A stretch of DNA of 64,000 bases from a virus. Both the position numbers and the translations under genes were made by a program. Of the stretch, positions 9,308 to 48,516 are shown piece after piece. Each line of letters opens with the position of its first letter. The stretch's first letter is position 1. The stretch lies in the IMG/VR virus record IMGVR_UViG_3300001390_000008, positions 29,805-93,804 of that record; one strand, written 5' to 3'. The notes beneath the pieces are model-generated. The model was not told the origin of the DNA. It saw nothing but the letters and a program-made list of their open reading frames with translations, and did no database searches.

Positions 9308-9460
9308 TTGAAATCGCTTGCAAAATAGAATATTAGAATATTAGAATTTAATTACATTATTATATTATTATATTAGAACTTAATTACATTATTACATTAG
9401 AGTTTAATTACATTATAATATTAGAATTTAATTACATTATTATATTAGAATGTTAGAATA
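9308..9460. repeat. AT-rich repeat array with operator copy
   Basis: A palindrome copy (TTGAAATCGCTTGCAA, 9308-9323) is followed by four to five imperfect units of TTAGAATTTAATTACATTA (9326-9460). The same units occur at 10690-10737 and 17755-17807. No gene is present in 9280-9540. Confidence 0.7.
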
Positions 9461-10659: not shown

Positions 10660-10770
10660 GAAAACATTTTTATACGAACATAAATTTAATCTATATTAGA
10701 ATTTAATTACATTATTATATTAGAATTTAATTACATTTTGCAAGCGATTTCAAAATATTATTATATTATA
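10640..10770. repeat. Dispersed control-region repeat, copy 2
   Basis: About 130 bp nearly matching 17702-17832: the perfect palindrome, a stretch with ACATTTTTATACGAACATAA, TTAGAATTTAATTACATT units, and TTGCAAGCGATTTCAA (10738-10753). Confidence 0.75.
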
Positions 10771-17721: not shown

Positions 17722-17870
17722 GAAAACATTTTTATACGAACATAAATTTAATTTATATTAGAATTTAATTACATTAGAATATTAGAATTTAATTATATTA
17801 TTATATTTTGCAAGCGATTTCAAAATATTATTGTATTAGAATATTATGATATTAGAATACTCTAATATTA
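17702..17870. repeat. Dispersed control-region repeat, copy 3
   Basis: Matches 10640-10770: palindrome, TTTTTATACGAACATAA, TTAGAATTTAATTACATT units, TTGCAAGCGATTTCAA (17808-17823), then more ATTAGAATA units to 17870. Confidence 0.75.
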
Positions 17871-23205: not shown

Positions 23206-23234
23206 AGTTTACACTATGAATTACATATAGTCAA
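23206..23234 (-). promoter_or_regulatory. Promoter of the tRNA/small-gene operon
   Basis: TTGACT (23229-23234), 17-bp spacer, TAAACT (23206-23211) on the minus strand, straddling the terminase stop codon. Confidence 0.6.
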
Positions 23235-26158
23235 TGTCTATCCGTATCACTTCGCTCACCTGCATCACTTCTGCCGTCGTCATGCATATCACTATCTGTC
23301 CCCCCATTTGGCATAACCCACGAAGAGGCCCTACTAAGTAATAAATTATATGCACCACATAAAGAATCGGCTGCATCCTTTGCCCCGATTATACTATGAT
23401 CAACTTTTCCTTCTTTACCTTTATTTTCATCAAATTCTAAAGACAATAATTCTTCCAGTAGTACGGGCTGATTATATAGCAGTATGCGCCCATCATAAAA
23501 GGCATCACGTAATTGGCGGTAAGGGGTGGGGGATCTGTCTACGGATATAAGGCCGGTCTTCATCCCCTGTCTCTTCCATGCTTGCCTGGATTCAACACTA
23601 TTATACCCATCATAACTGACCGCCTTAATAGGATACCCATATGTGCTATATAGTAGCTTTATCCATGAACGTATATTTGCCACATCTACTTCATTACCGT
23701 GGTCTGGCTGAACGGTCATACACATTTCCATGGATACAAGGGGCAGTGCCTCCTGCTCCCCGTCCACCCTCTCTACCCATTGTAGGCCGTCAAACCTAAC
23801 CATACATATCCCTGTTCTATCTTGTGTAGAGCTTAAATCAATATGTACATATCTGGGTTTACCTGGATTACTACAAAAATGCCCCTTAATAGGTAGAGGT
23901 AGGCCTTGGTGCCTTAGTATTATGTTATCTTCCGGTAAGAAGGACTTTAAGCCCGCTTCTTCGCCTTTTGCCACACATTGCATAACCTTCTGGGGCTGCC
24001 TTATAAAAGGCGATATAGCGTTCGTAGAGAGGCCGGATATATCCCGTAGTGCTTTGGTGGGGTTTTTAACGAATTGCTCTCTGTACTCCACGGGCACCTG
24101 TATAACGCGGCCCCCAATAGCCTTCTCATTATCCCCCATAACACGCACAGACATAGCTGCATCACTACCAATAAACAAGTTAAACTTATCCCCACAAAAC
24201 CTGTTCTGCGGAACTACTTCATATTGAGCATACCCGAACACAAAAGTAGTGCTTATGTGCTCCCTGCGTACAATCTCTTCTAAGCGATCGGTGTAGTCCC
24301 CCTTGTACCTTGTAGAAGATGAGCAGATAATCATCCCCACCTGTGGGCCTGGCAGGGTAAACCGGCTTTTACGACGTGTGCTAAGGGCATCATGTATAGC
24401 TTCTGCCTGATCATACTTAGATGATCTGCCCATACTGACGCGTACCTTCTTTGATCTCTCAATAACACTCATGAAATTTACTTCATCTATTAGAGCAAAA
24501 ATCATAGCTTCGCCTAATGCCGCATCATCATCTGCCCCGCCTGGAACCACACGAATGTTTTGTTCTACAAAATACATTTCAGAATCTAATAGTTTATCGG
24601 GCCTCATGTTCTTGCGAAACCACGGCATAGTCTCTATATACTTTCGTAGGGGGGCATAAACTACTTTCTTGGTAACGTGTGGTTTTGCCGCTTGAATAAT
24701 AAATAGAATAGAAGTAGCAGAGGGTAGGCCCCAATAGGTCTGGGGGGTTTTCATGCACCCTAATATATGCAAATGATAGGCTATTGTAATTTTAGCTAAT
24801 TCCGTGTTGTGTGTGACAGTAAAATCGCCCAGCAAATATCTATGATCCCCCCCAATTACAACCCCATAATAATTACCCTTTCCTATAGGCTCTACCTTAA
24901 ACCCTGTTACAAGTACATCTTTTTTCTGCCCCCTTACCGGTGCCTTTTTATTAATTGATAATGTAGGTATTAGATGACAATCGCCACTTATAAATACACG
25001 ATAATAGATGCCAGTAAATCCTGTTGATTTTATACCTTTAATTACCTCTTTCTTATATGCAGCGAACCCTAATGATCTGCATAAATAAACAGCCTGATCT
25101 GCAAAGCATTCATCCTTAGCTATAAAATCAAACCCACCACATGATAGGCGGCCACCCCCGTCTAATATCCCGGCTAATAATTGTAATCTATTTTTCCTGC
25201 TGTTTATTAAATACTCTTTTGGTATCCTTCTTCTATGTAGATAATCCGTTAATGACTCTCTTATATCGGCAAATCCCAAAAGGCTAATATCCCATGCACC
25301 TCTGTCGTAGTTTACCTGTCCTATCTGTACATGCTTCTTTACCCGCTCTAGGCAAAGTAATTTATTACCCCCCAAAGACAGAGCACTACGGTATTTACAA
25401 CCATCCGCTAAATACAGACCTATGGTGTAAGGGTCAAATACTTTAATCTCCAGGAACTCTACGCCTACACGATATTGTTTATGCAAGTGTTTAAATGTCT
25501 TTGATTTATTCAAATATTCTTTTACTGTAATATTTACTATATCCCCTGCATACCTGTCCCCACTTCTTATTTTAGTACGTTTAAGGCTCAGTATATGATC
25601 TGCATTACATGTCCATGATTCCCCTTTAACAGGGGTAATACGGTACATATCGCCATAACTTTCATTAGCTTGTAATACTGGTTGCGGGTTTGACTCCGGC
25701 CCCATTAAAACATCGCCCTTGTTTATATTCTGGGATAGCTTTATACCCCCATCATATAATAGTACAGGGACGTCCACCCCTAAGCACTTTCCGGTACCTG
25801 TTGCGCGAGAGAATATAGCCTGGTCATAATGTTTATCCGCGCCTTTCCACCAATGGCTATTAAGCTCAATAACCGCCTCTCTTACTTTAGGCCATAGTTT
25901 TAGATCTGTGGAGCCCATAAACTGATCAGAATCTATAAATTCTTCTATGGATACGGGGGGCTGTTTTAAGTGTTCTATGAAATTTAAAAAGTTATGGTTA
26001 TTATGCATTGCTGCTTGCTTTATTGCATGAACATAAAATTCAGCAAACATTTTATTATTTAATGTACTAACAGAGGCCTCGGCAGCATCTATCATTAACT
26101 GCGCTTTTCTTGTCAGATTACCGCTCTGGGTAGCCAACTTTCTTTTACGTCTAGTCAC
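23231..26158 (-). CDS. terL: Terminase large subunit with intein
   Basis: 975-residue precursor. The N-extein (1-124) ends in the Walker A motif ATGTGK and the C-extein resumes TELAKITIA, so the spliced ATPase reads GTGKT; mature length is 648. Walker B is in MIFALIDEVNF; the C-terminal RNase H-like nuclease has HIDLSSTQDRTG and VSYDGYN acidic residues. It packages DNA into the prohead, with the small subunit encoded 47 bases upstream. The C-terminus is rich in D, G and S. Packaging depends on intein removal because the ATP-binding loop is split. Confidence 0.92.
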   Translation of the reverse strand: MTRRKRKLATQSGNLTRKAQLMIDAAEASVSTLNNKMFAEFYVHAIKQAAMHNNHNFLNFIEHLKQPPVSIEEFIDSDQFMGSTDLKLWPKVREAVIELNSHWWKGADKHYDQAIFSRATGTGKCLGVDVPVLLYDGGIKLSQNINKGDVLMGPESNPQPVLQANESYGDMYRITPVKGESWTCNADHILSLKRTKIRSGDRYAGDIVNITVKEYLNKSKTFKHLHKQYRVGVEFLEIKVFDPYTIGLYLADGCKYRSALSLGGNKLLCLERVKKHVQIGQVNYDRGAWDISLLGFADIRESLTDYLHRRRIPKEYLINSRKNRLQLLAGILDGGGRLSCGGFDFIAKDECFADQAVYLCRSLGFAAYKKEVIKGIKSTGFTGIYYRVFISGDCHLIPTLSINKKAPVRGQKKDVLVTGFKVEPIGKGNYYGVVIGGDHRYLLGDFTVTHNTELAKITIAYHLHILGCMKTPQTYWGLPSATSILFIIQAAKPHVTKKVVYAPLRKYIETMPWFRKNMRPDKLLDSEMYFVEQNIRVVPGGADDDAALGEAMIFALIDEVNFMSVIERSKKVRVSMGRSSKYDQAEAIHDALSTRRKSRFTLPGPQVGMIICSSSTRYKGDYTDRLEEIVRREHISTTFVFGYAQYEVVPQNRFCGDKFNLFIGSDAAMSVRVMGDNEKAIGGRVIQVPVEYREQFVKNPTKALRDISGLSTNAISPFIRQPQKVMQCVAKGEEAGLKSFLPEDNIILRHQGLPLPIKGHFCSNPGKPRYVHIDLSSTQDRTGICMVRFDGLQWVERVDGEQEALPLVSMEMCMTVQPDHGNEVDVANIRSWIKLLYSTYGYPIKAVSYDGYNSVESRQAWKRQGMKTGLISVDRSPTPYRQLRDAFYDGRILLYNQPVLLEELLSLEFDENKGKEGKVDHSIIGAKDAADSLCGAYNLLLSRASSWVMPNGGTDSDMHDDGRSDAGERSDTDRH
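24806..25786 (-). mobile_element. Class 1 intein with LAGLIDADG endonuclease in terminase
   Basis: 327 residues, from Cys125 (CLGVDVPVLLYDGG) to Asn451 (FTVTHN), followed by Thr. Block B SWTCNADHIL supplies the penultimate histidine motif. Two dodecapeptide motifs, TIGLYLADG and LLAGILDGGG, mark a LAGLIDADG homing endonuclease. Inserted between Lys and Thr of the Walker A loop. Confidence 0.9.
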
Positions 26159-30724: not shown

Positions 30725-31078
30725 TTATCTCTCTATAAAATGTAGTGCATAAGTAGGAATAATAGCTATCTCCATCTCGGGGGCTCCCCTTTCATCAATG
30801 AACTCTATAACTATGGCTGGTATCTCTGTATTACATAGAGCAGCCTCCTCTATCTTGTTAAGCATATCTCTGGTAACACTAAATGATTTATTCTTAGTAG
30901 TCTTTGCCTCTATGCGGATAATACCATAGCACCCTTTAACATCACCTTTTTGGTGCCCAGACCCAGAACCGGGAACTAATGCACCTTTAAACCTATTTGC
31001 TAATTCTAGCTCCTGTTTGGGGGAGCGTACATGGGATACACTCTGCTTACCCCGTTCGCTTTTAGGTATCTTAAGCAT
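30725..31078 (-). CDS. PD-(D/E)xK resolvase-like endonuclease, 117 aa
   Basis: GSGSGHQKGDVKG with Asp46, and RIEAKTTKNKSFSV with Glu57 and Lys59, form the PD-(D/E)xK core of archaeal-type Holliday junction resolvases and related phage nucleases. It overlaps the recA stop by one base. Its role beside RuvC may be branch cleavage or phage-specific nicking. Confidence 0.7.
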   Translation of the reverse strand: MLKIPKSERGKQSVSHVRSPKQELELANRFKGALVPGSGSGHQKGDVKGCYGIIRIEAKTTKNKSFSVTRDMLNKIEEAALCNTEIPAIVIEFIDERGAPEMEIAIIPTYALHFIER

Positions 31079-33258
31079 TAAGTAATCCTACATATAAACT
31101 CATTAGGCATACCTAACTTTTCTGCCTGCTTGCGTATAATGTGGGTACGTAATTCCCAATATATATCGGGCTCCTCACGTAACATTTGTATAGCATCTTC
31201 CTGTAGACTAAACTTAGTTTTATAGTCTAGAAATTCTAACCACTGATTTGCCCCCGCCCCACCCACAAAACCAAACTTCTTTGCTACTGAAAATACAGTA
31301 CGTGCATCATCTACATCCCCTACACCCATACCTGTTTTTTCATCAGGATCCCTTATTATAGTAAACTCACCTGTGCGAGGGCCGTTATTCATTTTATTTT
31401 TAGTTATAGTATATGAATGTTCATTATGTGTGATGGTTTCCATTGCATTAGTATCGTTACCTTTTATCTCCCTATTTTTCATAATAATATCAAAACTAGT
31501 AGCGTGGCCCAGCGCCCGGCCCCCTGGAACCTTTCTAGGGTTCATACCATGACCTCCAATATCACTCCTAAATTGATTGGTATTAACTAGTGTTACGTAG
31601 TGATTTCGCCGCCTTTCCTCTATCATAATAGAAGTAGTCTTGCGTACAAACTCTGCAATAAGCCTGGCGTGGAAGGCAACAAGATGATCTTCTGCGCTGG
31701 ATTCTCTTTCTTTCATTGGTTCCATAGCTGCGATAGAATCTACGACTACTAGGGAGGTTTCTACGGACTGTAGTATAGCATCTGCAATATCAAGTGCCAT
31801 CTCACCTGTCTCGCATTCAATAACCTCTAAAGCATCTATATCCACCCCCAACTTTTCTGCCCATACACTTTCAAAAGTACCTTCGGTGTCTAGTACAATA
31901 ACTTTTTGATCTGGAAATTGCCTCTGTGCATTAGCTATTATCTTATTAGACAACATACTATTATGTGTAACTATATAGTCTTGTGTAATGTATAAATTGT
32001 CTTCTGCCTCAATGCTAATACAGACCATATCACAATCTTCATCTGGCACTATATGTGAGATGGATCTTACTGGCCCTCTACGCTTTCTACCGCCATAAGC
32101 CTCTACCTTTTTCTTACACGCCTTAAATGTGGGCACCCCCAAAGGCAGCACAATAGAAACTGTTTGCTCGTACACCTCATCTTCTTCTCTGTAACTTTGA
32201 CTAATAGATGCAGTTCCCCCTAGTGACTGGGCTAACTCCTGAACACCTAATGCTAATTGCCTTGAGTACGAGTGATATCTAGCCCCTGCATAATGTTTAT
32301 CTTCTTCCTTATTTAAATATACTGTAGACCCATCACAATCCATTAACCCGTTTAATAAAGAAATTCTGTCATCAATAGAGGCTCTTAAGTAGACTTCTGG
32401 GATAAACTTATCCCTAGATAATTTTCCCCATATACCTAAAACTCTAAGACTACTTATTGTCGTATTCCTTTTCTTTTTTTCTACATCAAATACCTTCCAG
32501 TGTCTAGTACCCTCCACGTAGGTTCTTTCTGCTACGATTACCCCACTGCCTCGTATTAGGCTATTTACATAAGCTAAAACATCTACATCATTTGTTGCTA
32601 TATCTATACTCCCGGCCAAATTACCATTAGCTAACATTACCCCCATAAGGTAAGGGTTTATAGGTAGATTCTCACTATCAAAAACCACAGGAGATACCAA
32701 AGGTATCCTATATTTACACATACCAGAATTCTTATCCCTTAGCCTACTATGAAATAATTCATCAGTTGTTTTTATAAAATGATTACCTGAGGTATGCGCT
32801 TGTTTCCTAGACTGAACATGCCATAGATGATCTTTCCCAACTACAAGCTCAGACTTATCAGTAAACGCTACTTTGTATGTGTGTATTCGCCCTCTCGGAT
32901 ATACTCCCGTGACTCTGGTTGCATGTCCGTCTGCCCCAATAACTAAATCGCCTACGGACAAATCTCCAAATAAACACCACCCATCAGGGGTCAGTATATT
33001 ATCCGTATATTTTTGGGCCTTCCCACAGTGTTTTTCCCCGAGTATGTGTGAGGATCTACTACACCCTATTCCACCTAGTGTTGAAAAATCTAGAACAAAG
33101 ATGCCCATAGAAATTCTATCTGGCTGTAGTATCTGCGAGCCCTTCCTTACAGAAGTATCCCCATACCTTTTTCTGACTTGATTTAGTGTATCCTTTAGCT
33201 CATTAGTCTTTTTTTCTTTCTTAACTGACTTCTTAGTAGACTTTCTACGCCTAGCCAT
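31078..33258 (-). CDS. recA: RecA recombinase with class 3 intein
   Basis: Start ATG 33258, overlapping the upstream stop; the frame extends to 33309 without need. Precursor 726 aa, mature 373 aa. The spliced Walker A is GEKHCGK|SML, then VIVLDTEGTF, Walker B SLVVVDSIAAM, and the loop-1/2 region with NQFRSDIGGHGMNPRKVPGG. It catalyses strand exchange for recombination-dependent replication and repair, together with the nucleases and UvsW-like helicase around it. The intein must be removed before ATP can bind. Confidence 0.92.
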   Translation of the reverse strand: MARRRKSTKKSVKKEKKTNELKDTLNQVRKRYGDTSVRKGSQILQPDRISMGIFVLDFSTLGGIGCSRSSHILGEKHCGKAQKYTDNILTPDGWCLFGDLSVGDLVIGADGHATRVTGVYPRGRIHTYKVAFTDKSELVVGKDHLWHVQSRKQAHTSGNHFIKTTDELFHSRLRDKNSGMCKYRIPLVSPVVFDSENLPINPYLMGVMLANGNLAGSIDIATNDVDVLAYVNSLIRGSGVIVAERTYVEGTRHWKVFDVEKKKRNTTISSLRVLGIWGKLSRDKFIPEVYLRASIDDRISLLNGLMDCDGSTVYLNKEEDKHYAGARYHSYSRQLALGVQELAQSLGGTASISQSYREEDEVYEQTVSIVLPLGVPTFKACKKKVEAYGGRKRRGPVRSISHIVPDEDCDMVCISIEAEDNLYITQDYIVTHNSMLSNKIIANAQRQFPDQKVIVLDTEGTFESVWAEKLGVDIDALEVIECETGEMALDIADAILQSVETSLVVVDSIAAMEPMKERESSAEDHLVAFHARLIAEFVRKTTSIMIEERRRNHYVTLVNTNQFRSDIGGHGMNPRKVPGGRALGHATSFDIIMKNREIKGNDTNAMETITHNEHSYTITKNKMNNGPRTGEFTIIRDPDEKTGMGVGDVDDARTVFSVAKKFGFVGGAGANQWLEFLDYKTKFSLQEDAIQMLREEPDIYWELRTHIIRKQAEKLGMPNEFICRIT
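31960..33018 (-). mobile_element. Class 3 (Trp-Cys-Thr) intein in RecA P-loop
   Basis: 353 residues from Ala (AQKYTDNILTPDG) to Asn (YIVTHN), before Ser. There is no Cys/Ser/Thr at position 1. Instead Trp is two residues after the block B His (KDHLWHV), Cys is at block F position 4 (MVCISIE in place of xYDLTVE), and Thr precedes the final His-Asn: the WCT triplet of class 3 inteins. LAGLIDADG motifs are LMGVMLANG and LLNGLMDCDG. Confidence 0.85.
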
Positions 33259-33586
33259 TATCACTCTCAGTACTAATGTACTGCTCCACTTCATTCTCAA
33301 GCATCTCACTTACCTGATCTGCAATAGCCTCATAAGTCTCGTTCACCATTTCTTTATAACATGGCATCATAATAGATACATCTACCCGCAGGAACTCATA
33401 CTGAGCTAAACTACGCGTTACCCCTGCCTTAACACTGACATAGGCGGGATCGACATCAAACACTTCAACCTCTTTTGTTACTAGTTCGGTTTCCTCGCCC
33501 TTTACTACTGAAGTAGTTACCGTCTTTGTAGACATAACTACTATCTTTTCCTTACTTTTTCTCTTACGCTTTTTCCGCTCTGCCAT
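33251..33586 (-). CDS. Hypothetical protein, 111 aa
   Basis: Basic lysine/arginine start (AERKKRKRKSKEK), then VSVKAGVTRSLAQYEFLRVD and an acidic C-terminus. The central part resembles phage proteins that accompany recA, but no function is known. Overlaps the recA start. Confidence 0.6.
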   Translation of the reverse strand: MAERKKRKRKSKEKIVVMSTKTVTTSVVKGEETELVTKEVEVFDVDPAYVSVKAGVTRSLAQYEFLRVDVSIMMPCYKEMVNETYEAIADQVSEMLENEVEQYISTESDNG

Positions 33587-34143: not shown

Positions 34144-35573
34144 TGGTATATCTCCGCGTTGCTTTCCTCGTATTCGGATATGCGTTTAAGGAATTTAAAC
34201 TCTGCCTTATAGGACATAATATCCCTGATTGTTACCCATAATGGGGTTTTTTTCCCGGCCATTGTTCTAAGTATACGCCCGTGTACCTGTTGCGCTTTTG
34301 CCCTTGGGGTGGCGTCTATGCCGGTATCCACGGCGGGGACATCAACCCCTTTTTTGAACATGGAATATGTAGAAAACCGTACACGGCGATTATCCCTCCT
34401 ATCCTCTAACTTAGCTTTGGGTATTTTCTTTTTTAGCATCTGCAACTTAACCGGGGTATATTCTGCATCTTTGATTAACCCGGCAGGCTTATGGGAGGGG
34501 GTGGCATCTTTAGCGTACTTCCATATATGGTCGTAGGTTGTTACTACCCCCATCTCTTCTGAGGGTATACCCTTATCTGCACACATACAAAATAAATTAT
34601 GCAGATGCTCTGCACGATCACTAACTACTAACACAGTACGGCCACGGCCATACAGCTCTTTAACTGCCCATACAAGCAAAGCATTTCGCCTATCGTCTCT
34701 GGAGATTTCTGTAATAAATCTACCGTCTTTTGGCGATACATTAGCATACCAGCTCAGGACACCATCGTACTCAATATAACTTGCCATAGATTTTTTATGC
34801 TTATTTTTTATCTTGACTTCTACATCACCAAGATTAACTTCAAGTAATTTTTGTAGCTTATCATCTCTATCCGGGGTGGCTGATACCCCAAATCTTACAC
34901 TTGCAGAAAATTGTAATAATACCTGTGAAAATTTCTCTGCACCAACGGTATCGCATTCGTCGAATACTACTGTACCAAAATAATTATATAAATCATCCTC
35001 GTATTTTCTGTTATACAGAGTTTGTACCATACCTACTACTAATTTTTTACCTCGATATTCACATAATTTACCCTGCACAATACCTATATCATTATCTTTA
35101 AGCCCGAATTTATTTTTAGCCTCTGATATCCACTGATCCCGTAAAAACTTCTGGTCTACTACTATCAATGCTGTCCTGCCCCGCCTGCGTATATACTCCA
35201 GACTACAGACAGTTTTTCCAAATCCTGCATGAGCTCTTACACGACAATCGTATTTAGCCGCATGGGGGCTAAAATAACTCTCTAACTCCTCAATAAATTT
35301 ATCCTGCCCTTCTCGCAATAGTAGCTTCTTCATACCCCCTATAGATTCCCCCTGCGAAGTCCTATCAACTACTGTTATGTTGTTATCATTAGCATAGGCC
35401 GCCCCGTACTGCCGTGGTGTATAGATAAATTTATGATCTACCTTATAGGCTGTAACAGTTGTTATTTTTTTCTTACTGTAATCCCATAACTTTATTGTTA
35501 GATCCTTCTTTACCTTTTTAAGGTCTACCTGATCTAACAAAAATCTTACATCACTGGTCAGTACCGCCTGCAT
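33993..35573 (-). CDS. UvsW-like SF2 helicase
   Basis: 526 aa with Walker A AHAGFGKT (114-121), DECD box (205-208), SATP motif III (231-234) and a C-terminal helicase lobe with KGVDVPAVDTGIDATP and QVHGRILRTM. It is related to T4 UvsW and the ResIII group, which remodel branched DNA and R-loops. It fits the RecA/RuvC set for moving from origin to recombination-driven replication. Confidence 0.85.
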   Translation of the reverse strand: MQAVLTSDVRFLLDQVDLKKVKKDLTIKLWDYSKKKITTVTAYKVDHKFIYTPRQYGAAYANDNNITVVDRTSQGESIGGMKKLLLREGQDKFIEELESYFSPHAAKYDCRVRAHAGFGKTVCSLEYIRRRGRTALIVVDQKFLRDQWISEAKNKFGLKDNDIGIVQGKLCEYRGKKLVVGMVQTLYNRKYEDDLYNYFGTVVFDECDTVGAEKFSQVLLQFSASVRFGVSATPDRDDKLQKLLEVNLGDVEVKIKNKHKKSMASYIEYDGVLSWYANVSPKDGRFITEISRDDRRNALLVWAVKELYGRGRTVLVVSDRAEHLHNLFCMCADKGIPSEEMGVVTTYDHIWKYAKDATPSHKPAGLIKDAEYTPVKLQMLKKKIPKAKLEDRRDNRRVRFSTYSMFKKGVDVPAVDTGIDATPRAKAQQVHGRILRTMAGKKTPLWVTIRDIMSYKAEFKFLKRISEYEESNAEIYQWHPRKGTRKINTSKLRTEVIRRGAELKKARIVIAPDGKNTVVMRGIASG

Positions 35574-38152: not shown

Positions 38153-40759
38153 ATACTCAGGTTGCTTTACCCTGCCATTATTGCGTGGTATTTTCTGCTT
38201 AGGCAGCTTAAATAGCCTATTGCCCTCTTCGTCCTTATTTATTTTACTAAATTTATATTTCTTATCAAGAGATAGCCCCTCCATTTCAAATGTTTCCCCG
38301 GCATTCCACCCAAAACTCACATCAGCAATTATTGGAACTTTTAAATCTAGATCAAACCATTTTTTAAGAGGATTTGTTTCCATGTAGTGCTTTAATGTCT
38401 TAGCCCCCCACTCTACATACTCCTCTTTAACAAGCACATAAATAGCATCATGTACAAACCCTGTAGGGGCCATAAACTTCTCATCTATTTCTTGATCTAT
38501 ACGTGATATGGCCATAACACCCAGACTAGAAGCAAACTCCTGGATGGTAGCATTTATGGCCTGCCTCAGAGCGTCAGCTACGACACCCTTATCTTGTGAG
38601 TAAACCATAGGTAGATGGCGTATACGCCCATCATAAGACCTCACATAGCCGTGTTTTAGTGCAAACTCTTTAACTGCATCATGCCAATTAGGTAATGTAT
38701 AAAACTTATTAAAAAAAGTATTTCTAATATTCTGTGCTTCTCTTGGAGTGAACTCTACACCATATTGTGTTTTTGCGTATATAATAAAATTTCTCCACCA
38801 CATACCAAAAACAAAACCAAAGTTTACAGCTTTAGCCTTAAACCTGCTTAAGGCCTGTTCCTCCTTCGGCAATTCTCTAAACTGCTCCAGTGACAAGCCT
38901 GTAACCTCAAGTGCAGTAGTTATATGTATATCCCCATTACTATTATAGATGTCTATCATAGTCGGGTCGTTAGCTGTGTGCGCTATTATCCTTAACTCCG
39001 CCTGACTTAGATCTGCCTCTAGAATTATATACCCTTTGGGTGCTTTAAATATTTTCCTATACGCTTTTGCATGTGATCCTCTCTTTGGGAAATTCTGCCC
39101 ATTTGGTGAATATGAATTTACCCTGCCGGTTACCGCCGTCCACAACCCATATGTAGGGTTTATCTTTCCCTCTACTATATAATTCTCCCTAAATCTACGG
39201 ACATTAGTTCCGAGCAATCTATCTACCTTCATCCATTCTGCAAGATCAATACAAAATTCACCTGCCCTTTTATGGTCAAAAAAGAAAGGTAAATGATCCT
39301 TTGATGAGGTTGAGGGTACCTGAAACTTAGACTCCAACTCCTTAGTAGTTTCTGTAAACACTAAGGGTTTTAGTCTAAAACCTTTTTTATGATCAAATAA
39401 TATATCTAATAAAAATGCTTTCCTGCTAAATTTTAGCCCGGCCTCTACATGCTTCCTTTTAATAGGCCGTGGCACCCTTTCCATTAAACTAACCCTAAGC
39501 CCCTCCACATACTCTGCTAACACTTCCTCGAAATCATCTAGTGCCTTTTCATCAATAAGCATACCTCTATGGTCTATCCGCATAAAAGCATTAATGCCGG
39601 GCATTGATACCCTACGATAGTGGTTGTATAGCTTAGAATCAGCATCCACTATATTTATTAGCTCAAAAAATAAACGTAGTGTTGCATCTGTGTCACCTAC
39701 ACCGTAGCTGACTATTCTATGTAAAGGTACTAAATCCATCCTACTTTTATCAAACTCTGCATTAAAGCGATCTGCATATCCCCCCATTTCAGGTACGTAC
39801 ATCTTAGTAAGATTATCTAAATTCTTCTGTTGCAAATTCTCATCAACAAGAGCCGCCAACATGATAGTGTCGTGATCTAATCTGTATCTAAATTTAAGAA
39901 AATGATATACCCACACCATATCGTATTTGCCATTTTGCCCAATAACACTTGTCTTTGGGTTCTGCAATAACTGTTTAAGTTGCCTTTTTAATCTTTTCTT
40001 CGCCCTTATTCCTGCGGGGGCATCGGGATGATCCCACGATAGTAGGTATCCGCTGCCCACCTCTACAGTAAACTGCATTGTCATTATCTTGCCTTTCTTA
40101 ACCCTCCAATCAGTCCCCACCGTCTCAAGATCAAAAGCTAAATACTCAGGCTGCATATCAATTAAAAACTGTAGGTCTGTTATTACCTTATAATCGCCCA
40201 GCGCATCTTCCCCGGCTTTATCTAAATCATAATCATACTCAACTATACGCTGTAATGTTTTGCAGTCACTTGCAAACAGTGGCTCATTCTGTGGGTATCT
40301 GACAGCAAGTATCGGGTCTAGTATTGGGCATACATAGGCATTATGCTCCTCATTGAAGACGGCTACCCCCCGCACTTTGCTAATTTTACACCTACGGCCC
40401 TGTACTGCACTTGCCGCATCTGCCCCTAGTGGTATGATTACTTCTGGCTTAAGTCTCTGTATCGTGTCTGTGAGGTGGTTTCTACAAGCGTTTTCTATAG
40501 TCTTTCTATCTTTAGCCCTCCACTTCTTAGGGTCATACCCACACCGCACTGTATTTGAGAAAACAAAATCTTTCCTGTTGAACCCACACCCCCTCATATA
40601 CTTAGCAAGCATTTCATTTGCCGCAGGGGTTATATTTTCTTTACGCAAAGACATACTGTGCGACACACCCTTGCTAACTATAAGAAATCTCGCCCCTTTA
40701 CTACCTGTTGGGGTAACTGGGTTATACCTCAACAAGCAGGCATCGCATGGATTACTCAT
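38135..40759 (-). CDS. DNA polymerase I family, fused to UDG-like domain
   Basis: 874 aa in three parts. Residues 1-160 resemble family 4 uracil-DNA glycosylase, with four iron-sulfur cysteines at 5, 8, 73 and 92 (NPCDACLL, VRCGYD, ENACRN) and IIPLGADAAS. The catalytic GExPG-E loop and HP(S/A) motif are not preserved (LDPILAVRYP instead). The 3'-5' exonuclease domain has Asp210/Glu212, Asp280 and Asp356. The polymerase has EADLSQAELR (about 583), RFKAKAVNFGFVFG and GFVHDAIYV (about 770), all intact. A UDG-like N-terminus is known in some phage polymerases such as that of SPO1. Confidence 0.9.
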   Translation of the reverse strand: MSNPCDACLLRYNPVTPTGSKGARFLIVSKGVSHSMSLRKENITPAANEMLAKYMRGCGFNRKDFVFSNTVRCGYDPKKWRAKDRKTIENACRNHLTDTIQRLKPEVIIPLGADAASAVQGRRCKISKVRGVAVFNEEHNAYVCPILDPILAVRYPQNEPLFASDCKTLQRIVEYDYDLDKAGEDALGDYKVITDLQFLIDMQPEYLAFDLETVGTDWRVKKGKIMTMQFTVEVGSGYLLSWDHPDAPAGIRAKKRLKRQLKQLLQNPKTSVIGQNGKYDMVWVYHFLKFRYRLDHDTIMLAALVDENLQQKNLDNLTKMYVPEMGGYADRFNAEFDKSRMDLVPLHRIVSYGVGDTDATLRLFFELINIVDADSKLYNHYRRVSMPGINAFMRIDHRGMLIDEKALDDFEEVLAEYVEGLRVSLMERVPRPIKRKHVEAGLKFSRKAFLLDILFDHKKGFRLKPLVFTETTKELESKFQVPSTSSKDHLPFFFDHKRAGEFCIDLAEWMKVDRLLGTNVRRFRENYIVEGKINPTYGLWTAVTGRVNSYSPNGQNFPKRGSHAKAYRKIFKAPKGYIILEADLSQAELRIIAHTANDPTMIDIYNSNGDIHITTALEVTGLSLEQFRELPKEEQALSRFKAKAVNFGFVFGMWWRNFIIYAKTQYGVEFTPREAQNIRNTFFNKFYTLPNWHDAVKEFALKHGYVRSYDGRIRHLPMVYSQDKGVVADALRQAINATIQEFASSLGVMAISRIDQEIDEKFMAPTGFVHDAIYVLVKEEYVEWGAKTLKHYMETNPLKKWFDLDLKVPIIADVSFGWNAGETFEMEGLSLDKKYKFSKINKDEEGNRLFKLPKQKIPRNNGRVKQPEYLQLTY

Positions 40760-42080: not shown

Positions 42081-42632
42081 CTAATCGCCAGACCGGGTAA
42101 TAACTAAATAATCACTATAATATCCAAAGAAGGCCTCATTAAAGAATTCATCAATATCAACTTTATTGCCAATACTGGCATACAAAATAAACCCTACCCC
42201 ATATCTCCCAGTTACATAAGCCATCCACCGCAACACAGATATGGCCTCTATACCTAGATATTTATCCCTATAAGTTTTTGTAAAAAAATCAGGTATAGTA
42301 ATAAAATCGACATTAATATCTATGTCGTATCTTCTCTTATTCCCCATCTTTAATAGATCCACCATCATTACTTCCTTAACGGGCATATTTAACACATAGC
42401 ATTCTTTATGGAATATTTCATAGAGTATCCGGGATCTAATTATCTCAGCCTCTCCCCCCTTATTACCCGGCACAAATAGATGCCATACTCTATGATCTTC
42501 GCACGTTTTTTCCTGATTAAGTCTAGCACCCAGCTTAGTCTCGCCCTCAGATAGATATGTTTTGTTTAGTACCTGAAATGATATGCCGTGATTCAGCATA
42601 TCCTGCTCACGCTCAGTTAATTGGTTTTTCAT
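42081..42632 (-). CDS. Possible helicase loader-like protein, 183 aa
   Basis: Between an initiator-like gene and the DnaB-like helicase, the usual place of a loader. The sequence LFVPGNKGGEAEIIRSRILYEIF has the spacing of a P-loop but not its lysine-serine/threonine, and later segments (VDFITIPDFF, VGFILYASIGN) follow an AAA-like order. A degenerate DnaC-like loader is my inference; it could be unrelated. Confidence 0.4.
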   Translation of the reverse strand: MKNQLTEREQDMLNHGISFQVLNKTYLSEGETKLGARLNQEKTCEDHRVWHLFVPGNKGGEAEIIRSRILYEIFHKECYVLNMPVKEVMMVDLLKMGNKRRYDIDINVDFITIPDFFTKTYRDKYLGIEAISVLRWMAYVTGRYGVGFILYASIGNKVDIDEFFNEAFFGYYSDYLVITRSGD

Positions 42633-42640
42633 TACCGCCC

Positions 42641-43837
42641 CTAATTAACTCTATTTTGTAGAAAATCCCTATGCTCAGGTAAATCCATTGACATTAACTC
42701 GCTATCAGAAAGCTGTGGCAAGGAGTTGTAGTATTTTTTCTTAGTCTCCTTTATTTTACTCAACTTAGATGAAAGAGTATTGTTTTTTGTTTCAATATTT
42801 TTTACTTTTATTTTTTCTTTTTGTAATTTACTTTCTAATTCTTTAATCTTACTAGTCATACTACCCATTATTTTTTTATTTATTGTAATATTTTTATTTC
42901 TCTTTTTCTGCGTTGCCTGATTACATGCATTTATTTTTAGTTGCTCCTGCTGCGACTCAATAACCTGCGGGTAAAAAGAACGAACAAATTGTAGACTCGG
43001 TACTGAAGGCGCTCCACCACCAAAACTACTACTGCTTACCCAGGTAAAATGCGGGACTAATAAATCCCAGTGGCTAACAGCTTCGTATAATACCTCTTTC
43101 CATGAACTATCTTTAAAAATTTGTTTAGTCCTGTGAACAAATAAAATTAATTCTTTTTTCGTAGGATTAATGACGATTGCATCTTTATGATTTGCCTTGT
43201 AGGACGAAATAGCATCTGCCCAAATTATACTTACATTTTTAATTGTAGGTACTACTATCTTTTCTATAATTTCTTTATGTTTTTCCCTGTGTTTTTGTTT
43301 TGCTTTTTCCCCTACTGAAATAGAATTAGTGCGAAGCGAAGTCTTCGCTTTGTTTATTGTTTTTAATGATTCTGTTCCTTTTACTTCTGTTCCTTTATTA
43401 CCTACTGCTATGTTGCCACCCAGGGTGGTAAAATTTACCCCCCTCAATTTTCTCTGTTTTTTGGGTATTTTAAGCATTTTTTTCATCTCCTTTACGATTA
43501 GTTTTTTTAACTTTACAAATATAATAGACACCTCACTATATCCCCTACCACTACCTATAATTACGTATTCAATACCCTTTTTTACAAGCCCTTTTCTAGC
43601 ATTTCTTACAGACCTGTCACTAAGTCCTATAGGCCCAATAATTGCCGTACCTTCGTTAGATGCTATGCCCGATTTATAGACACTATAGGGGATGTTTTCT
43701 TTTGATTTAGAAAATCTAAAAGTTCTGTCTACGTCAAATAGTAGAAGCATGAACTCTGAGGGGGTAAGAACTTTGCGCAGGAACCGGTTAATGTGGAGAA
43801 TAGACCAAATATACTCTTCTTTAGTTATCGCAATCAC
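42641..43837 (-). CDS. Replication initiator-like winged-helix protein
   Basis: The N-terminal part (LTPSEFMLLLFDVDRTFRF, then IIGPIGLSDRSVRNARKGL) is a winged-helix replisome-organiser domain like DnaD or phage O proteins. The rest is lysine-rich, with a middle helical domain and a C-terminal coiled coil. I prefer GTG 43837 with AAGGAAA upstream (398 aa); TTG 43906 would add 23 residues but overlaps plus-strand promoter DNA and has no site. An origin at or beside this gene is likely. Confidence 0.6.
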   Translation of the reverse strand: MIAITKEEYIWSILHINRFLRKVLTPSEFMLLLFDVDRTFRFSKSKENIPYSVYKSGIASNEGTAIIGPIGLSDRSVRNARKGLVKKGIEYVIIGSGRGYSEVSIIFVKLKKLIVKEMKKMLKIPKKQRKLRGVNFTTLGGNIAVGNKGTEVKGTESLKTINKAKTSLRTNSISVGEKAKQKHREKHKEIIEKIVVPTIKNVSIIWADAISSYKANHKDAIVINPTKKELILFVHRTKQIFKDSSWKEVLYEAVSHWDLLVPHFTWVSSSSFGGGAPSVPSLQFVRSFYPQVIESQQEQLKINACNQATQKKRNKNITINKKIMGSMTSKIKELESKLQKEKIKVKNIETKNNTLSSKLSKIKETKKKYYNSLPQLSDSELMSMDLPEHRDFLQNRVN

Positions 43838-43899
43838 AGCTTTTCCTTGTAGTAATTGCTGCGTTTTACTGCGAATAGTGGTATTTATTGTAATTATTG

Positions 43900-43993
43900 T
43901 TGACAATTATATTACAATACAATAAAATTACACACTGCTTCGAGTGGATACGCAAGCAAGGTTTTAAGACCCTCTTTTATCGGAGGGTTTTTT
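43900..43993 (+). ncRNA. Promoter and short plus-strand transcript 1
   Basis: Plus-strand TTGACA (43900-43905), 17-bp spacer, TAAAAT (43923-43928), then about 59 nt from ~43935 to a terminator ACCCTC/GAGGGT with six T (43969-43993). The body contains a TGCTT/AAGCA hairpin. It is transcribed away from the initiator gene and contains no gene. It could be a small regulatory RNA or a replication primer. Confidence 0.6.
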
Positions 43994-44065
43994 ATGCCCA
44001 CTTATGGGGCAACGACAACCCAATATACGGGTTTACTATGTACGAGTCAAATGGATTACCCGTAC

Positions 44066-44237
44066 TTGACAATAGGCCTTCTATACTATAGAATTATTAA
44101 TTATTACAGTCTTCTACTCCCCTTGATTGCTGTAATAATGTACGCCTTATGAAGGCTATGGTTGATTATCTGTTTTATACTTTTCACGGATAACGCCTAA
44201 TGAAGAGCCCCCCCCCATATCGGGGGTTTTTCTTTTT
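44066..44237 (+). ncRNA. Promoter and short plus-strand transcript 2
   Basis: Plus-strand TTGACA (44066-44071), 17-bp spacer, TAGAAT (44089-44094). The predicted RNA of about 137 nt starts near 44101 with a perfect 10-bp hairpin (44100-44109 with 44130-44139, 20-base loop containing CTCCCC), then GCCTT ATG AAGGC, and ends in a CCCCC/GGGGG terminator with T-rich tail (44212-44237). No coding frame. The hairpin arm also occurs at 8361-8392. Confidence 0.6.
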
Positions 44238-44241
44238 AAGG

Positions 44242-44571
44242 CTATTTTACTTTGACAGCATACTTTTCAGCTACACCTCTTGCTGCGGTATACCCCTCCT
44301 CAGATAAAGGACTACATCCTTGTTTTCTACATTCCTGTAACCACGCCACCTCAAACTTCCTGGCTAAATCGTACCCGCAGAAGCCTCCCACAGTTTTAAC
44401 GAAAACAGACCCATGAGGGATGCCTATATCCCATCTCTGTGTATTACTGTTGTATTTGATTTCACTTGCACGAGTAACGTGCATTTTACCTAAAAAGGAT
44501 AATGGAAACTCATCCATGTGCAATGCTTGAACCCTTCCATCTATAGACACATCTATCACCAATTCATTCAT
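44242..44571 (-). CDS. Hypothetical protein, 109 aa
   Basis: ATG 44571 behind AAAGGTG preferred over an upstream GTG. VIDVSIDGRVQALHMDEFPL then a helical C-terminus with three Cys (GFCGYD, QECRKQGCSP). Last gene of the Ycf46-like module; unrecognised. Confidence 0.6.
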   Translation of the reverse strand: MNELVIDVSIDGRVQALHMDEFPLSFLGKMHVTRASEIKYNSNTQRWDIGIPHGSVFVKTVGGFCGYDLARKFEVAWLQECRKQGCSPLSEEGYTAARGVAEKYAVKVK

Positions 44572-44660
44572 TTTATTCACCTTTAAAATGTCTGGTCTAA
44601 CTATTACCGTATACAGTAGCGGCTAAATGTACCGAGCTACCACTAAGACCATACTTTATA

Positions 44661-44864
44661 CTAAAAAGTCATTCTTCCTATTTGTGTGGAAGATACCGGA
44701 GAAGCATAATAGTCTGGCTTCTCTTTACGCTTTACTGCGCCACCCCCTAAAACTAGTTCAATTTGCTCTGTGGCCTTAGCACACGCCTTACCTTTAAAAC
44801 CATCAACATCTATTTTAATGCCACCGGCAGGCGATATGTCTATGATTATAGTGCCTTTATTCAT
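44661..44864 (-). CDS. DUF2997 family protein, 67 aa
   Basis: TIIIDISPAGGIKIDVDGF followed by GKACAKATEQIELVLG is the DUF2997 pattern (beta strand, G-x-x-C-x-x-A-T helix). The C-terminal 25 residues are an extra tail. In bacteria DUF2997 genes commonly lie next to DUF1257 genes, as here. Molecular role unknown. Confidence 0.8.
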   Translation of the reverse strand: MNKGTIIIDISPAGGIKIDVDGFKGKACAKATEQIELVLGGGAVKRKEKPDYYASPVSSTQIGRMTF

Positions 44865-44873
44865 AGTACCCCC

Positions 44874-45311
44874 CTATGCGGATATTTGTAATTGTATGGT
44901 GCCGTCGTTTTTATTATGGCGAATTACCCTGTAACCTTGCTGTATAGCCTTACGGGTAGCCGCATGAATACTATACATCTGGTATAATTTGCCCATTCTA
45001 CTTTGGTTTTTACTCACAGAAGAGTCTTTAACCCCTAATTGATTTTCTACACTATCCATATAGAAATCAGTACGGGCTTCCATGCCTGTACTATCTTTAT
45101 TCTGGTATAGACCTACATCATACTGTGCATCATGCAGCTTAATAACAAAGGGTGCTTTACCCATACCTGTTTGATCCATACTATAGGCACGTGGTATTGC
45201 ATTCTCTAGTAGCTCGCAATTAATCCCCATAGTTTTTAATTCTTTGACCGCAGATTTTAATGCACATATATCTGAAATCACAATAGACGAAATTGTACTA
45301 GTGTGTGACAT
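44874..45311 (-). CDS. DUF1257 (Ycf35-like) protein, 145 aa
   Basis: MSHTSTISSIVISDICALK at the start, a central YDVGLYQNKDSTGMEARTDF and the C-terminal KLYQMYSIHAATRKAIQQGY match DUF1257, the family of plastid Ycf35. It follows a strong promoter. Its partners here, DUF2997 and a Ycf46-like ATPase, suggest a conserved functional unit. Function unknown in any system I know. Confidence 0.8.
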   Translation of the reverse strand: MSHTSTISSIVISDICALKSAVKELKTMGINCELLENAIPRAYSMDQTGMGKAPFVIKLHDAQYDVGLYQNKDSTGMEARTDFYMDSVENQLGVKDSSVSKNQSRMGKLYQMYSIHAATRKAIQQGYRVIRHNKNDGTIQLQISA

Positions 45312-45340
45312 TATCTTTTCTCCTTTTCTATTTGACCTAC

Positions 45341-45369
45341 ATTATACAGATAAATATATCTATATGCAA
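45341..45369 (-). promoter_or_regulatory. Strong promoter, TTGCAT class
   Basis: TTGCAT (45364-45369), 17-bp spacer, TATAAT (45341-45346), with upstream ACTATGATTTGCATATAGAT shared with 48547-48575. Confidence 0.75.
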
Positions 45370-45382
45370 ATCATAGTTAATA

Positions 45383-45988
45383 CTAGGTTATACGTATTAT
45401 TCTACGTTTTCCTTTTGGCATACGTATATTTTTAGTCTTTCCTTCGCCTGTAGGCACTAACACCATTTCAGGTCTTGGTACCCCCTCTTGCAGATTTCTA
45501 ATTGTATACAGTTCATCTATTTCCTCTGCATCAAAAAACCTGGATAACATTCCCTTAGGGTAGTTAATATTAAAATCTAGTAGTTCTTGTGTTTCTAGAA
45601 TATCCCCTCTCCCAATAAAAGCATTAATTTTTTTAAATCTAGCAACTTTATTTGGGCTAAACACTTTAACATCTATGGTTATCAGTGGGGCTTCTTTTCT
45701 TAATGATACCAACAATACCCCTTCTGCATATACCCTGCCTAATCTGGATACGGAAGAACTGACAGCAACTACTGTACCCTCCTTCACCTCCATACAACTG
45801 GAAAACCAACACCCATTAGTTTCTATATCCTTGTCTGAGGCACATATTTTAGTATAGCGGCCTACTATCTTTCCTGCCTTGCTAAGGAATACCCTGTCAT
45901 ACCCGCCATTGCACATCATTGCAAATAAATGAATTTTTGCACTGGTGCTCTGAAACGACTGCGAGCCGTACATTGTATTTACTATCAT
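45383..45988 (-). CDS. Hypothetical protein, 201 aa, in Ycf46-like module
   Basis: Located between the ATPase and the DUF1257 gene, five bases after the ATPase stop. Beta-rich N-terminal half (GTVVAVSSSVSRLGRVYAEG) and a basic C-terminus (GKTKNIRMPKGKRRIIRIT). Unrecognised; its position implies a role with the ATPase. Confidence 0.65.
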   Translation of the reverse strand: MIVNTMYGSQSFQSTSAKIHLFAMMCNGGYDRVFLSKAGKIVGRYTKICASDKDIETNGCWFSSCMEVKEGTVVAVSSSVSRLGRVYAEGVLLVSLRKEAPLITIDVKVFSPNKVARFKKINAFIGRGDILETQELLDFNINYPKGMLSRFFDAEEIDELYTIRNLQEGVPRPEMVLVPTGEGKTKNIRMPKGKRRIIRIT

Positions 45989-45993
45989 CTATA

Positions 45994-48516
45994 TCACTTA
46001 TTTTTCTTTATACGGGTATGCCTTTTATGGCCTATTTTAGTTACATTATCCGGGTCTGTGGTTTCTTCATAAATCTTTGATGCTGGGGTAGCATTCCCCT
46101 TTATCCAAACGGCCATTTCCTGTATTTCTTTACTATAGGTTTTTGATAAAGGAACCATATTCTGAAGAGCCTCATATACATACTTCATGCTAAATTTTTT
46201 ACCGGCACTAAATGCGTCAATAAGCCCGTCCTTTACGGCAGATTCAATTTCGGCTGGTACATACCCTAAAGATATATCAACTACTTTGCTTTTATGTAGA
46301 TCACTAAATTTATCTGGGTTATATCCTCTCTTGGCTAAATGAATATTAAGCACTTCAAGGCGCTCTCTGCCTGTAGGTAGGCCTGCACCGAAGATAGCAT
46401 CGAATCGTCCACGACGTAGAAGCTCAGGGGGCAGCCCTTGTATATTATTAGCCGTTACAATTGTGAAAATTGGTGATTTATTATCTTGTAACCATGTGAG
46501 GAAATACCCTAATACTCTGCTCGATGTTCCAGAATCGCCGCCCCCCGAACCTATACCACCAAGTCCCTTGTCTATCTCATCGACCAGAATACAGCAAGGA
46601 GCCACAGCTTGGCACATTGCTAAAGCTGTTCTCATACGCTCTTCTGATTTTCCGATAAAACTGTTAAACATTCTGCCAAAATCTAATCGTATCAGAGGTA
46701 CACCAAACTCCCTAGCTATTGATTTCGCTGCAAGGGACTTGCCTGAATTATGTACAATTAATCCGTTAGCTACAAAATTGTTACTAGGGCTTTTCATTTG
46801 TATATCGTAGGTATCTCTTTCGCCTATGTACTTTATTCTAATTATCTTCTGTAGTCGTGGAGCATTACGGTACCTGTTTATATTGCCGCCCTCAGACATG
46901 TGCCGCCTAGCATGTTCTTCTTTAGTAAGTGTCTCTAGGTTATCTATAGTATTATTAGATCTATCCTTATCTTTGTGATGTACTTCCATACTATTAGGCA
47001 AAAAATCCAATAAAGACACATCCTCTTCTAGTGCATAAAGAAAGTCCTCCAAAGGCATTTCGTTGTTATGTGCCTCTACTACTAATCTATGCAAAGGGTG
47101 GCTTGTATACTCTAGCCCATTTATACACCTAGTACGTGCGTTAGGGTGGTTACCCACATTATTCATCATACGCTGTGCAGGGGTTTTATTCCTCCCCCCC
47201 GAATTATCGTCAAGCAAAGAGCCCTTCTTATAGGCAAGGATACTTCTACTCACGGATAGATCACATAATCGCACATAACCGTATCTTGTACGGAACTTAT
47301 GATCTTTTGTAACAGGCAAATATGCCCCATAATCGGTCTGCACCTCATATACTTTTTTCTTACCTGAATAAACAACCCCTTCTATCTCATTAAAGCCTAT
47401 GTACCCTTCCCCCTCTATCAGACTGTGTGCCTTTGTCGCTTTAGTTAAGTCCCACTCTCTGTGTGTTTTATTTAGTAGTCCTAGCTCCACAGCCTTATCA
47501 TGCATACCGTTAAACCTATAGTACAGCGTATCTAACCTCATCCCCCTGTAAGACCCTGATTTCTGCCTCCTGCATACGTTTATCATTGCCTCGCCCGCCA
47601 GACACCCAGGAATACCGACGAAAACTAAACCACGAGGAGGTTCAATACCAAAATCCCGCGCTTCATCGGAATAGCATTTAGCACGTTTGCTTACCCATTC
47701 TTTTAGGTTCTCCATACCACCTACATCTTTCATATCCTCTGGATGATAAATTTCTAGAATATCATTTTTATTAACGATATCTATCTTACCCTTATTGACC
47801 CCTTTAATTATATCTTCAGCAGAAATATGTTTTAAGGTAGTAGCCGCTTCGACAATCGCATGTGCTGCGTACATTTCAAAATTAGCTTTTGTCATGCCTG
47901 CGCCCACATGACATATATCATCATAGTCCTCTTCATCAAGTTCTATTGACCCTTCCCCGCCTTCCCAACCGACAACCCCCTCAACTATGTCATGCAAATA
48001 CTCTACAAGCTCACTATGAGAAGGCGGATTAAAAGGCAGGGTTATTATTAGATCATTAATAGAATCAGGCATAGGTGTATCGGGGGTTATCAGCAGTATC
48101 CTTACTTTACTGCAAGGCAGGGCATCGTTATACCTTTCTAAAAAATGTATGAGTACGGGGTTATCCTCTAACCAATATTGCACATTTACAAAAGCTATAT
48201 ATAGATACTTTTCTCTATCTTTTTCAAGTTCCTTTATGATACTGGCTATTGCATTTCCTATATCTATATTTCTATCCCCTTCTACATTAATATCCTTCAT
48301 CGTAGCTATAGTATATGCAGTAAACCCCTCTACCAGATCCCACTCTAGATAATCGTGCCCTTCTATTAATATAGTCTTACGTGTAGCTGCACATGCACGA
48401 ACTATTTCCTGTGTTCTGACATGTATAATTGCAGCCCCCGCATTAGATAAAAGTCTAAGACGGCAGGCGAACTCATCCTCAGAGTGCCGACTAATATGTT
48501 CTGCACTTATTTTCAT
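45994..48516 (-). CDS. Ycf46-like AAA+ ATPase with intein
   Basis: 840-residue precursor, 554 after splicing. The N-terminal ~260 residues form a degenerate ATPase-like domain (AGAAIIHVRTQEIVRACA; FVNVQYWLEDNPVLIHFLER), as in Ycf46. The second domain has Walker A GIPG|SGKSLAAKS, Walker B ILVDEIDKGLGG and the DGxR-like LRRGRFDAIF region. The AAA+ ring class can remodel proteins or nucleic acids. Associated downstream with an unknown protein, DUF1257 and DUF2997. Confidence 0.85.
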   Translation of the reverse strand: MKISAEHISRHSEDEFACRLRLLSNAGAAIIHVRTQEIVRACAATRKTILIEGHDYLEWDLVEGFTAYTIATMKDINVEGDRNIDIGNAIASIIKELEKDREKYLYIAFVNVQYWLEDNPVLIHFLERYNDALPCSKVRILLITPDTPMPDSINDLIITLPFNPPSHSELVEYLHDIVEGVVGWEGGEGSIELDEEDYDDICHVGAGMTKANFEMYAAHAIVEAATTLKHISAEDIIKGVNKGKIDIVNKNDILEIYHPEDMKDVGGMENLKEWVSKRAKCYSDEARDFGIEPPRGLVFVGIPGCLAGEAMINVCRRQKSGSYRGMRLDTLYYRFNGMHDKAVELGLLNKTHREWDLTKATKAHSLIEGEGYIGFNEIEGVVYSGKKKVYEVQTDYGAYLPVTKDHKFRTRYGYVRLCDLSVSRSILAYKKGSLLDDNSGGRNKTPAQRMMNNVGNHPNARTRCINGLEYTSHPLHRLVVEAHNNEMPLEDFLYALEEDVSLLDFLPNSMEVHHKDKDRSNNTIDNLETLTKEEHARRHMSEGGNINRYRNAPRLQKIIRIKYIGERDTYDIQMKSPSNNFVANGLIVHNSGKSLAAKSIAREFGVPLIRLDFGRMFNSFIGKSEERMRTALAMCQAVAPCCILVDEIDKGLGGIGSGGGDSGTSSRVLGYFLTWLQDNKSPIFTIVTANNIQGLPPELLRRGRFDAIFGAGLPTGRERLEVLNIHLAKRGYNPDKFSDLHKSKVVDISLGYVPAEIESAVKDGLIDAFSAGKKFSMKYVYEALQNMVPLSKTYSKEIQEMAVWIKGNATPASKIYEETTDPDNVTKIGHKRHTRIKKNK
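46747..47604 (-). mobile_element. Class 1 intein with HNH endonuclease in AAA+ P-loop
   Basis: 286 residues from Cys305 (CLAGEAMINVCRR) to Asn590 (GLIVHN), followed by Ser. The block F/G region TYDIQMKSPSNNFVANG is canonical. The endonuclease is HNH type, with LHRLVVEAHNNE and VHHKDKDRSNNTIDNLETL. It splits Walker A between the two glycine-containing halves, GIPG and SGKS. Confidence 0.9.

Follow-up and report, generated by a model that had tools for sequence, protein, structure and literature searches.

Predicted antisense promoter-terminator units before a phage replication initiator gene resemble the oop region of lambda

The gap in front of a phage replication initiator gene raises the question of why two short transcription units should run there against the direction of the genome. 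The gap lies in a 64,000-nucleotide stretch of DNA (the window), which is bases 29805-93804 of the 93.8-kb IMG/VR virus record IMGVR_UViG_3300001390_000008. The large genes of the window are on the minus strand, and the two units are on the plus strand. Computation shows the signals of the units, the retention of their position in diverged phages, the promoters that go with them there, and the repeats within initiator genes. From them we infer transcripts, repression, and control of replication. The reading that we favor, with somewhat more than even confidence, is that these are OOP-like antisense units that restrain both initiator expression and origin-directed transcription. Such a device probably tunes how frequently the phage DNA is copied.

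Both units consist of a sigma-70-type promoter and an intrinsic terminator. Promoter P1 (43900-43928, plus strand, TTGACA-17-TAAAAT) and promoter P2 (44066-44094, plus strand, TTGACA-17-TAGAAT) each match 11 of the 12 consensus bases and are predicted from this match. The 64 kb contain seven sites with at least 11 of 12 bases, five on the minus strand and two, P1 and P2, on the plus strand. P1 and P2 are 166 bp apart in the same gap, and each has its terminator. In shuffled sequence, a promoter this good within 150 nt before the terminator has p = 0.007 for P1 and p = 0.003 for P2. Terminator T1 (43966-43993) has a stem of CCCTC (43970-43974) and GAGGG (43983-43987) followed by TTTTTT (43988-43993). 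It was missed by the terminator scan, probably because the stem reaches into its own T run, and was found by RNAfold. Terminator T2 (44207-44237) has a C-rich stem at 44209-44226 followed by TTTTTCTTTTT to 44237. The promoter-terminator distances predict RNA1 of about 59 nt (43935-43993), with two hairpins, and RNA2 of about 137 nt (44101-44237), which is highly structured and has a C-rich loop of 20 nt, CUACUCCCCUUGA. The folding energies are -19 kcal/mol for RNA1 (z = -2.7 against shuffles) and -41.5 kcal/mol for RNA2 (z = -4.9). RNA2 ends 5 bp short of the stop codon of the upstream minus-strand gene, which encodes 112 amino acids (44242-44580, phrog_38408, 3e-14) and is conserved in syntenic phages. 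The initial annotation described two plus-strand units with TTGACA boxes, 17-bp spacing, and terminators, yielding RNAs of about 59 and 137 nt just upstream of an initiator-like gene in a genome otherwise read from the other strand, and this description holds.

Several other signals were noted in the window. Nested AT-rich inverted repeats cover P1 at 43884-43932 (TTTATTGTA/TACAATAAA and TATTGTAAT/ATTACAATA; repeats I6, I7, I14, I16, and I20), and they possibly form an operator. Elsewhere, TATTGTTGACAAT from this dyad does not recur above chance, and the recurrence of TATTGTAATTATTGT is borderline. A 24-bp AT-rich repeat (ATTAGAATTTAATTACATTATTAT-like) occurs in three arrays (9330-9451, 10683-10737, and 17745-17807) that could be binding sites of a phage protein. 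Two minus-strand sites with 18-bp spacers (9279-9250 and 7573-7544) match all 12 sigma-70 bases and are likely strong early promoters. A strong plus-strand terminator-like hairpin (34320-34356, -24 kcal/mol) lies antisense within a DEAD/ResIII helicase gene.

The gene next to the units encodes a predicted replication initiator within a replication module. It lies at 42641-43837 on the minus strand and is homologous to the initiator of locus L008 (E 3e-17) and to a protein of Pseudomonas phage SM1. The window protein has no direct match to the Phage_rep_O-like N-terminal domain. The syntenic initiator of Aeromonas phage HJ05 matches PF04492 (Phage_rep_O) at 5.6e-5, under the curated cut-off, as well as O-like PHROG families, and the L010 initiator matches PHROG replication initiation families. 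Through these homologs the window protein appears to be a distant relative of the O-type winged-helix initiators. Its predicted start is more likely the GTG at 43837 than the TTG at 43906, because an AAGGA Shine-Dalgarno sequence precedes the GTG and the start of the L008 protein is at the equivalent position; the TTG overlaps the -35 box of P1. In the SM1-like Pseudomonas phages OL473897.1, OL622073.1, OL343755.1, and OQ383211.1, the initiator homolog is annotated as a holin, apparently wrongly.

The surrounding gene order is shared with several isolated phages. Downstream of the initiator come genes for a 183-aa protein, for a DnaB-like helicase, and for a DNA polymerase of family A (PolA), with a DnaG-type primase further on. 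The upstream genes encode DUF2997, DUF1257, and 201-aa proteins and an AAA ATPase that carries an intein. Phage SM1, Rhizobium phages RHph_I4 and L338C, and HJ05 share this order, and Rhodobacter phage RcTiptonus shares part of it. Searches with the polymerase recovered many IMG/VR contigs that have it as well. The best relative, L008, is 62% identical in the polymerase, 54% in DnaB, and 20% in the initiator. Other searches gave no relatives: the initiator in a single-protein scan for close relatives, DnaB alone as a query, the window DNA against phage records by blastn, and proteins against plasmids. DUF1257 was not found in the bacterial and archaeal genomes searched, and an alignment of 16 DUF1257 proteins was too divergent for scanning. 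The AAA ATPase (45994-48516) carries its intein with an HNH endonuclease (Pfam Intein_splicing and HNH_3). A RecA/UvsX-like protein (31078-33309) has a LAGLIDADG region inserted, probably also an intein, and a 975-aa protein (23231-26158) with a Hint domain near its N-terminus is possibly a third intein carrier.

The position of the antisense unit is conserved among related phages. An antisense intrinsic terminator (-14 kcal/mol or better) precedes the initiator in 15 of 28 non-redundant loci, the window included, whereas position alone predicts about 0.55; the gaps in this count were drawn by hand after the pattern was seen. No such terminator is present in any of the 103 intergenic stretches elsewhere in these loci. 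An automatic rule takes the largest ORF ending within 1.3 kb before DnaB, and looks from -250 to +150 around its start, with every other ORF of 270 aa or more serving as a control. It finds the terminator at 12 of 30 loci versus 5 of 198 controls (Fisher p = 1.2e-8), a count that uses the loci where the pattern was noticed and so removes the bias of gap drawing, not that of locus choice. The window itself, with its unusually long gap, is not picked up in this way. Applied to a new set of phages that are more distant by DnaB, the same rule gives 3 of 41 versus 3 of 176 (p = 0.08). Since this distant test is weak, the claim is limited to phages with the order AAA-DUF1257-DUF2997-initiator-DnaB and their near kin; the unit belongs to these and thins out beyond them. 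Antisense hairpins with poorer U tracts, which the strict rule misses, are present at L031, L093, and L144 and less clearly at L036 and L039; they were seen post hoc and are uncounted.

Companion promoters accompany many of these terminators. They are found in HJ05, RcTiptonus, L008, L010, L012, L015, and L052, mostly with a 17-bp spacer, and predict RNAs of about 50-140 nt, among them one of about 52 nt in HJ05 and one of about 63 nt in RcTiptonus. Examples are TTGACC-17-TACTAT in HJ05, TTGACT-16-TATATT in RcTiptonus, TTGACT-17-TACTAT in L008, TTGACG-17-TAGTAT in L012, and TTGACC-17-TAGAAT in L052. The sites lie over the initiator start or within about 100 bp of it. For the 150 nt before the terminators the combined shuffle p is 8e-7, or 1e-4 without the window, and at several loci (e.g., L022, L040, L045, and L056) the promoters are not significant singly. 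Three Rhodobacter phages keep both the promoter and the terminator stem, and the terminator stems of L034 and L035 differ by one compensatory base-pair change. When both strands were read for L008, L010, L012, L015, L022, and L034, the sense strand had no terminator-like T run, so these terminators are antisense only. A second unit like that of RNA2 was seen in none of the relatives, only in the window. The RNA sequence is not conserved between phages, while the promoter-terminator geometry is. The gene upstream of the unit differs among RcTiptonus (gp66), HJ05 (gp69), and L008, making the initiator the common neighbor. The initial annotation had offered antisense RNA as one possible role, and this is strongly supported, because the unit keeps its place upstream of the initiator while the DNA and the initiator sequence have diverged.

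The antisense unit has a patchy distribution and is not essential. Its place in the gap is taken by a sense terminator plus promoter in SM1-like and Rhizobium L338C-like phages. Both halves of a DnaB tree include phages with the antisense unit, and this distribution requires at least six changes on well-supported branches. Either the unit arose, disappeared, or was replaced repeatedly, or the strict terminator rule counts too few cases. Two SM1-like loci (L017, 4325-4450, and L019, 4930-5080) have overlapping divergent promoters inside a palindrome (TTGACG/TTGACA, both strands), an arrangement that suggests control by a repressor.

The origin of replication is probably inside the initiator gene. 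The initial annotation suggested an origin at 43.8-44.3 kb, and the comparison with relatives shifts it to about 43.37-43.45 kb. Iteron-type repeats are found inside the initiator genes of most relatives examined, several of them about 380-400 bp after the start. These direct repeats are 14-24 bp long, and many contain dyads. For example, there are three 23-nt copies at +387 in L008, two at +394 in HJ05, two at +383 in L012, two 23-nt copies in L015, and repeated GTCTCACAGTGAGAC units in L023, and internal repeats also occur in L034, L045, L056, L062, L032, and L028. In locus coordinates, the expected origin positions are 6722-6789 in L008 and 5407-5452 in HJ05. At the matching place the window has a predicted origin core (43370-43445) with overlapping dyads at 43410-43444 (CCACCC-A-GGGTGG and GGTAAAATTTACC) and a 12-nt direct pair at 43370-43396 (two copies of TTCTGTTCCTTT), weaker than the repeats of the relatives. 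This core lies at +392 to +467 from the start and matches or adjoins the repeats of L008, L012, L015, HJ05, and lambda. GC skew has no switch at 44 kb and gives no origin signal; it tracks the gene strand.

The arrangement suggests how the units could act on the initiator. A minus-strand promoter, Pinit (44022-44050, TTGACT-17-TATATT, 10 of 12 bases), lies back to back with P2 and is the probable promoter of the initiator operon. If Pinit is used, the predicted leader runs from 44015 to 43838 and contains the complement of RNA1, which gives RNA1 the initiator-leader complementarity of plasmid countertranscribed RNAs. RNA polymerase would start at P1, read away from the initiator, and stop about 59 nt on. 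From P2 it would make the second structured RNA, stopping at the end of the upstream gene. RNA1 would be complementary over its whole length to the initiator mRNA leader, both for an mRNA started at Pinit and for one made by read-through from upstream. Its pairing with the leader would block translation or invite RNase III, and less initiator would be made. Head-on transcription from P1 would interfere with transcription through the initiator gene and the origin inside it. Leader pairing and opposing transcription together would restrain initiation. Lambda OOP RNA does not alter the stability of the O-P mRNA (PMC3985674), and repression by pairing may not carry over to this phage.

Other explanations of the units differ in whether the RNAs themselves matter. 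The act of transcription could be what counts, with P1 (and P2) working like lambda pO in a dual-promoter model and RNA1 and RNA2 being by-products. Convergent transcription would then limit the initiator-directed transcription that reaches the origin and set the timing of replication. In lambda, plasmid copy number falls when pO is mutated but responds little to raised OOP RNA levels, and polymerase collision has been proposed as the cause (PMC3985674); the conservation of geometry rather than of RNA sequence also fits. On the other hand, both RNAs of the window are more structured than shuffles, RNA2 strongly so, and this structure would be needless, while inhibition of lambda replication required the oop sequence itself (PMC3349717). 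We consider this explanation unlikely. The structure of RNA2 and its C-rich loop, which could pair with purine-rich ribosome sites, would also suit a small RNA acting in trans on host or other phage mRNAs and placed here for early expression, a role that RNA1 might share. This is improbable, as the relatives keep the position and not the sequence. In Rfam only a tRNA of the window exceeds the gathering score, and no family was found for RNA1 or RNA2; the permissive threshold gives only sub-threshold matches (RybB-like, 19.5 bits against a cut-off of 40). A scan of the rest of the window for 10-mer complementarity to either RNA, uncorrected for chance, gave no stand-out target, and a search of viral contigs with the 5' sequence of RNA2 gave no match.

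Chance and priming explain the locus less well than antisense control does. P1, P2, and T1 are singly unremarkable in AT-rich DNA, and the predicted units could be chance or decayed signals that yield no transcripts. Two paired units in one gap and the enrichment across phages make this very improbable. The initial annotation also raised the possibility of primer RNAs, which would start phage DNA synthesis at an origin within 43.8-44.3 kb; the location beside the initiator and the AT-rich dyads over P1 are in keeping with such a role. Priming is nevertheless very improbable, because each RNA ends at an intrinsic terminator and points away from the predicted origin, the relatives have their repeats within the initiator gene, and the phage has a DnaG-type primase and a DnaB helicase of its own. 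A primer role was also proposed for lambda OOP and was later judged unlikely once DnaG proved sufficient (PMC3985674).

Antisense control of initiators may extend to other tailed phages. The purpose of lambda OOP in replication has been debated since the 1970s, because the RNA also acts as an antisense on cII and this obscures the answer. Non-lambdoid phages that have other genes upstream share the lambda layout, and some of them are isolates that grow on cultured hosts (Aeromonas phage HJ05 and Rhodobacter phage RcTiptonus), so an OOP-type role in replication can be tested directly in the absence of cII. A tentative generalization, which we hold to be possible rather than probable, is that OOP-type antisense units before initiators with intragenic iterons are a general replication control of tailed phages, repeatedly gained, lost, or replaced outside the lambdoids. 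Control of lambda cII would then be a side use, and the window phage would double the device, with a first RNA directed at the initiator leader and a second that diverges from the initiator promoter. The analysis also gives a likely origin position for this group of phages, inside a gene that is mostly annotated as hypothetical or even as a holin.

The closest known counterpart is the lambda pO-oop-tO region, with further parallels in a plasmid and a bacterial chromosome. As a positive control, the scan of lambda recovers tO at 38603 and pO, with its start at about 38676, 10 nt before gene O (38686). The lambda iterons (39034-39118) lie at +348 to +432 inside O, and OOP RNA is 77 nt long. As in lambda, the window has a predicted short self-terminating RNA opposite the initiator gene, here a probable distant O-type relative, from a promoter just upstream of or overlapping the start. 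Iteron-type repeats lie inside the initiator gene in most relatives, as they do in lambda O, and the window has overlapping dyads and a 12-nt pair at the matching place. A sigma-70 promoter that reads away from the initiator, no more than about 100 bp from its start, is found in the window (P1) and in seven relatives. T1 and T2 predict RNAs of about 50-140 nt that stop at an intrinsic terminator, either in the gap or where the upstream gene ends, and such terminators are present at 15 of the 28 loci. Unlike in lambda, the upstream gene is phrog_38408 and not cII, with no antisense RNA to a cII 3' end; the window has a second unit, and T2 ends just before the upstream gene without overlapping its coding end. 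The window phage also encodes DnaB, and its replication module includes PolA. Lambdoid oop/pO regions share 33 bp of sequence homology, and a blastn search with 42600-45400 against a phage collection including lambda gave no match. In lambda, OOP is an antisense RNA on cII, and pO brakes the pR transcription that reaches the origin (PMC3985674). Antisense RNAs over initiator leaders can repress initiators, as with RNAII of plasmid pMV158 (PMC4485353) and ArrA of Bacillus subtilis, which lowers dnaA expression (PMC12112137). RNAII, like the predicted RNA1, is a short antisense transcript that has a hairpin and U tail and is complementary to a part of the initiator mRNA close to the start, and as in pMV158 a DNA-binding regulator may act on a neighboring promoter. 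The settings differ: pMV158 uses RepB for rolling-circle replication, and the window comes from a phage record of about 94 kb that has an O-like initiator together with DnaB and PolA. ArrA is chromosomal, and its promoter and target are unrelated in sequence to those of the window; like the predicted RNA1, it is antisense to the 5' UTR of the mRNA of a replication initiator.
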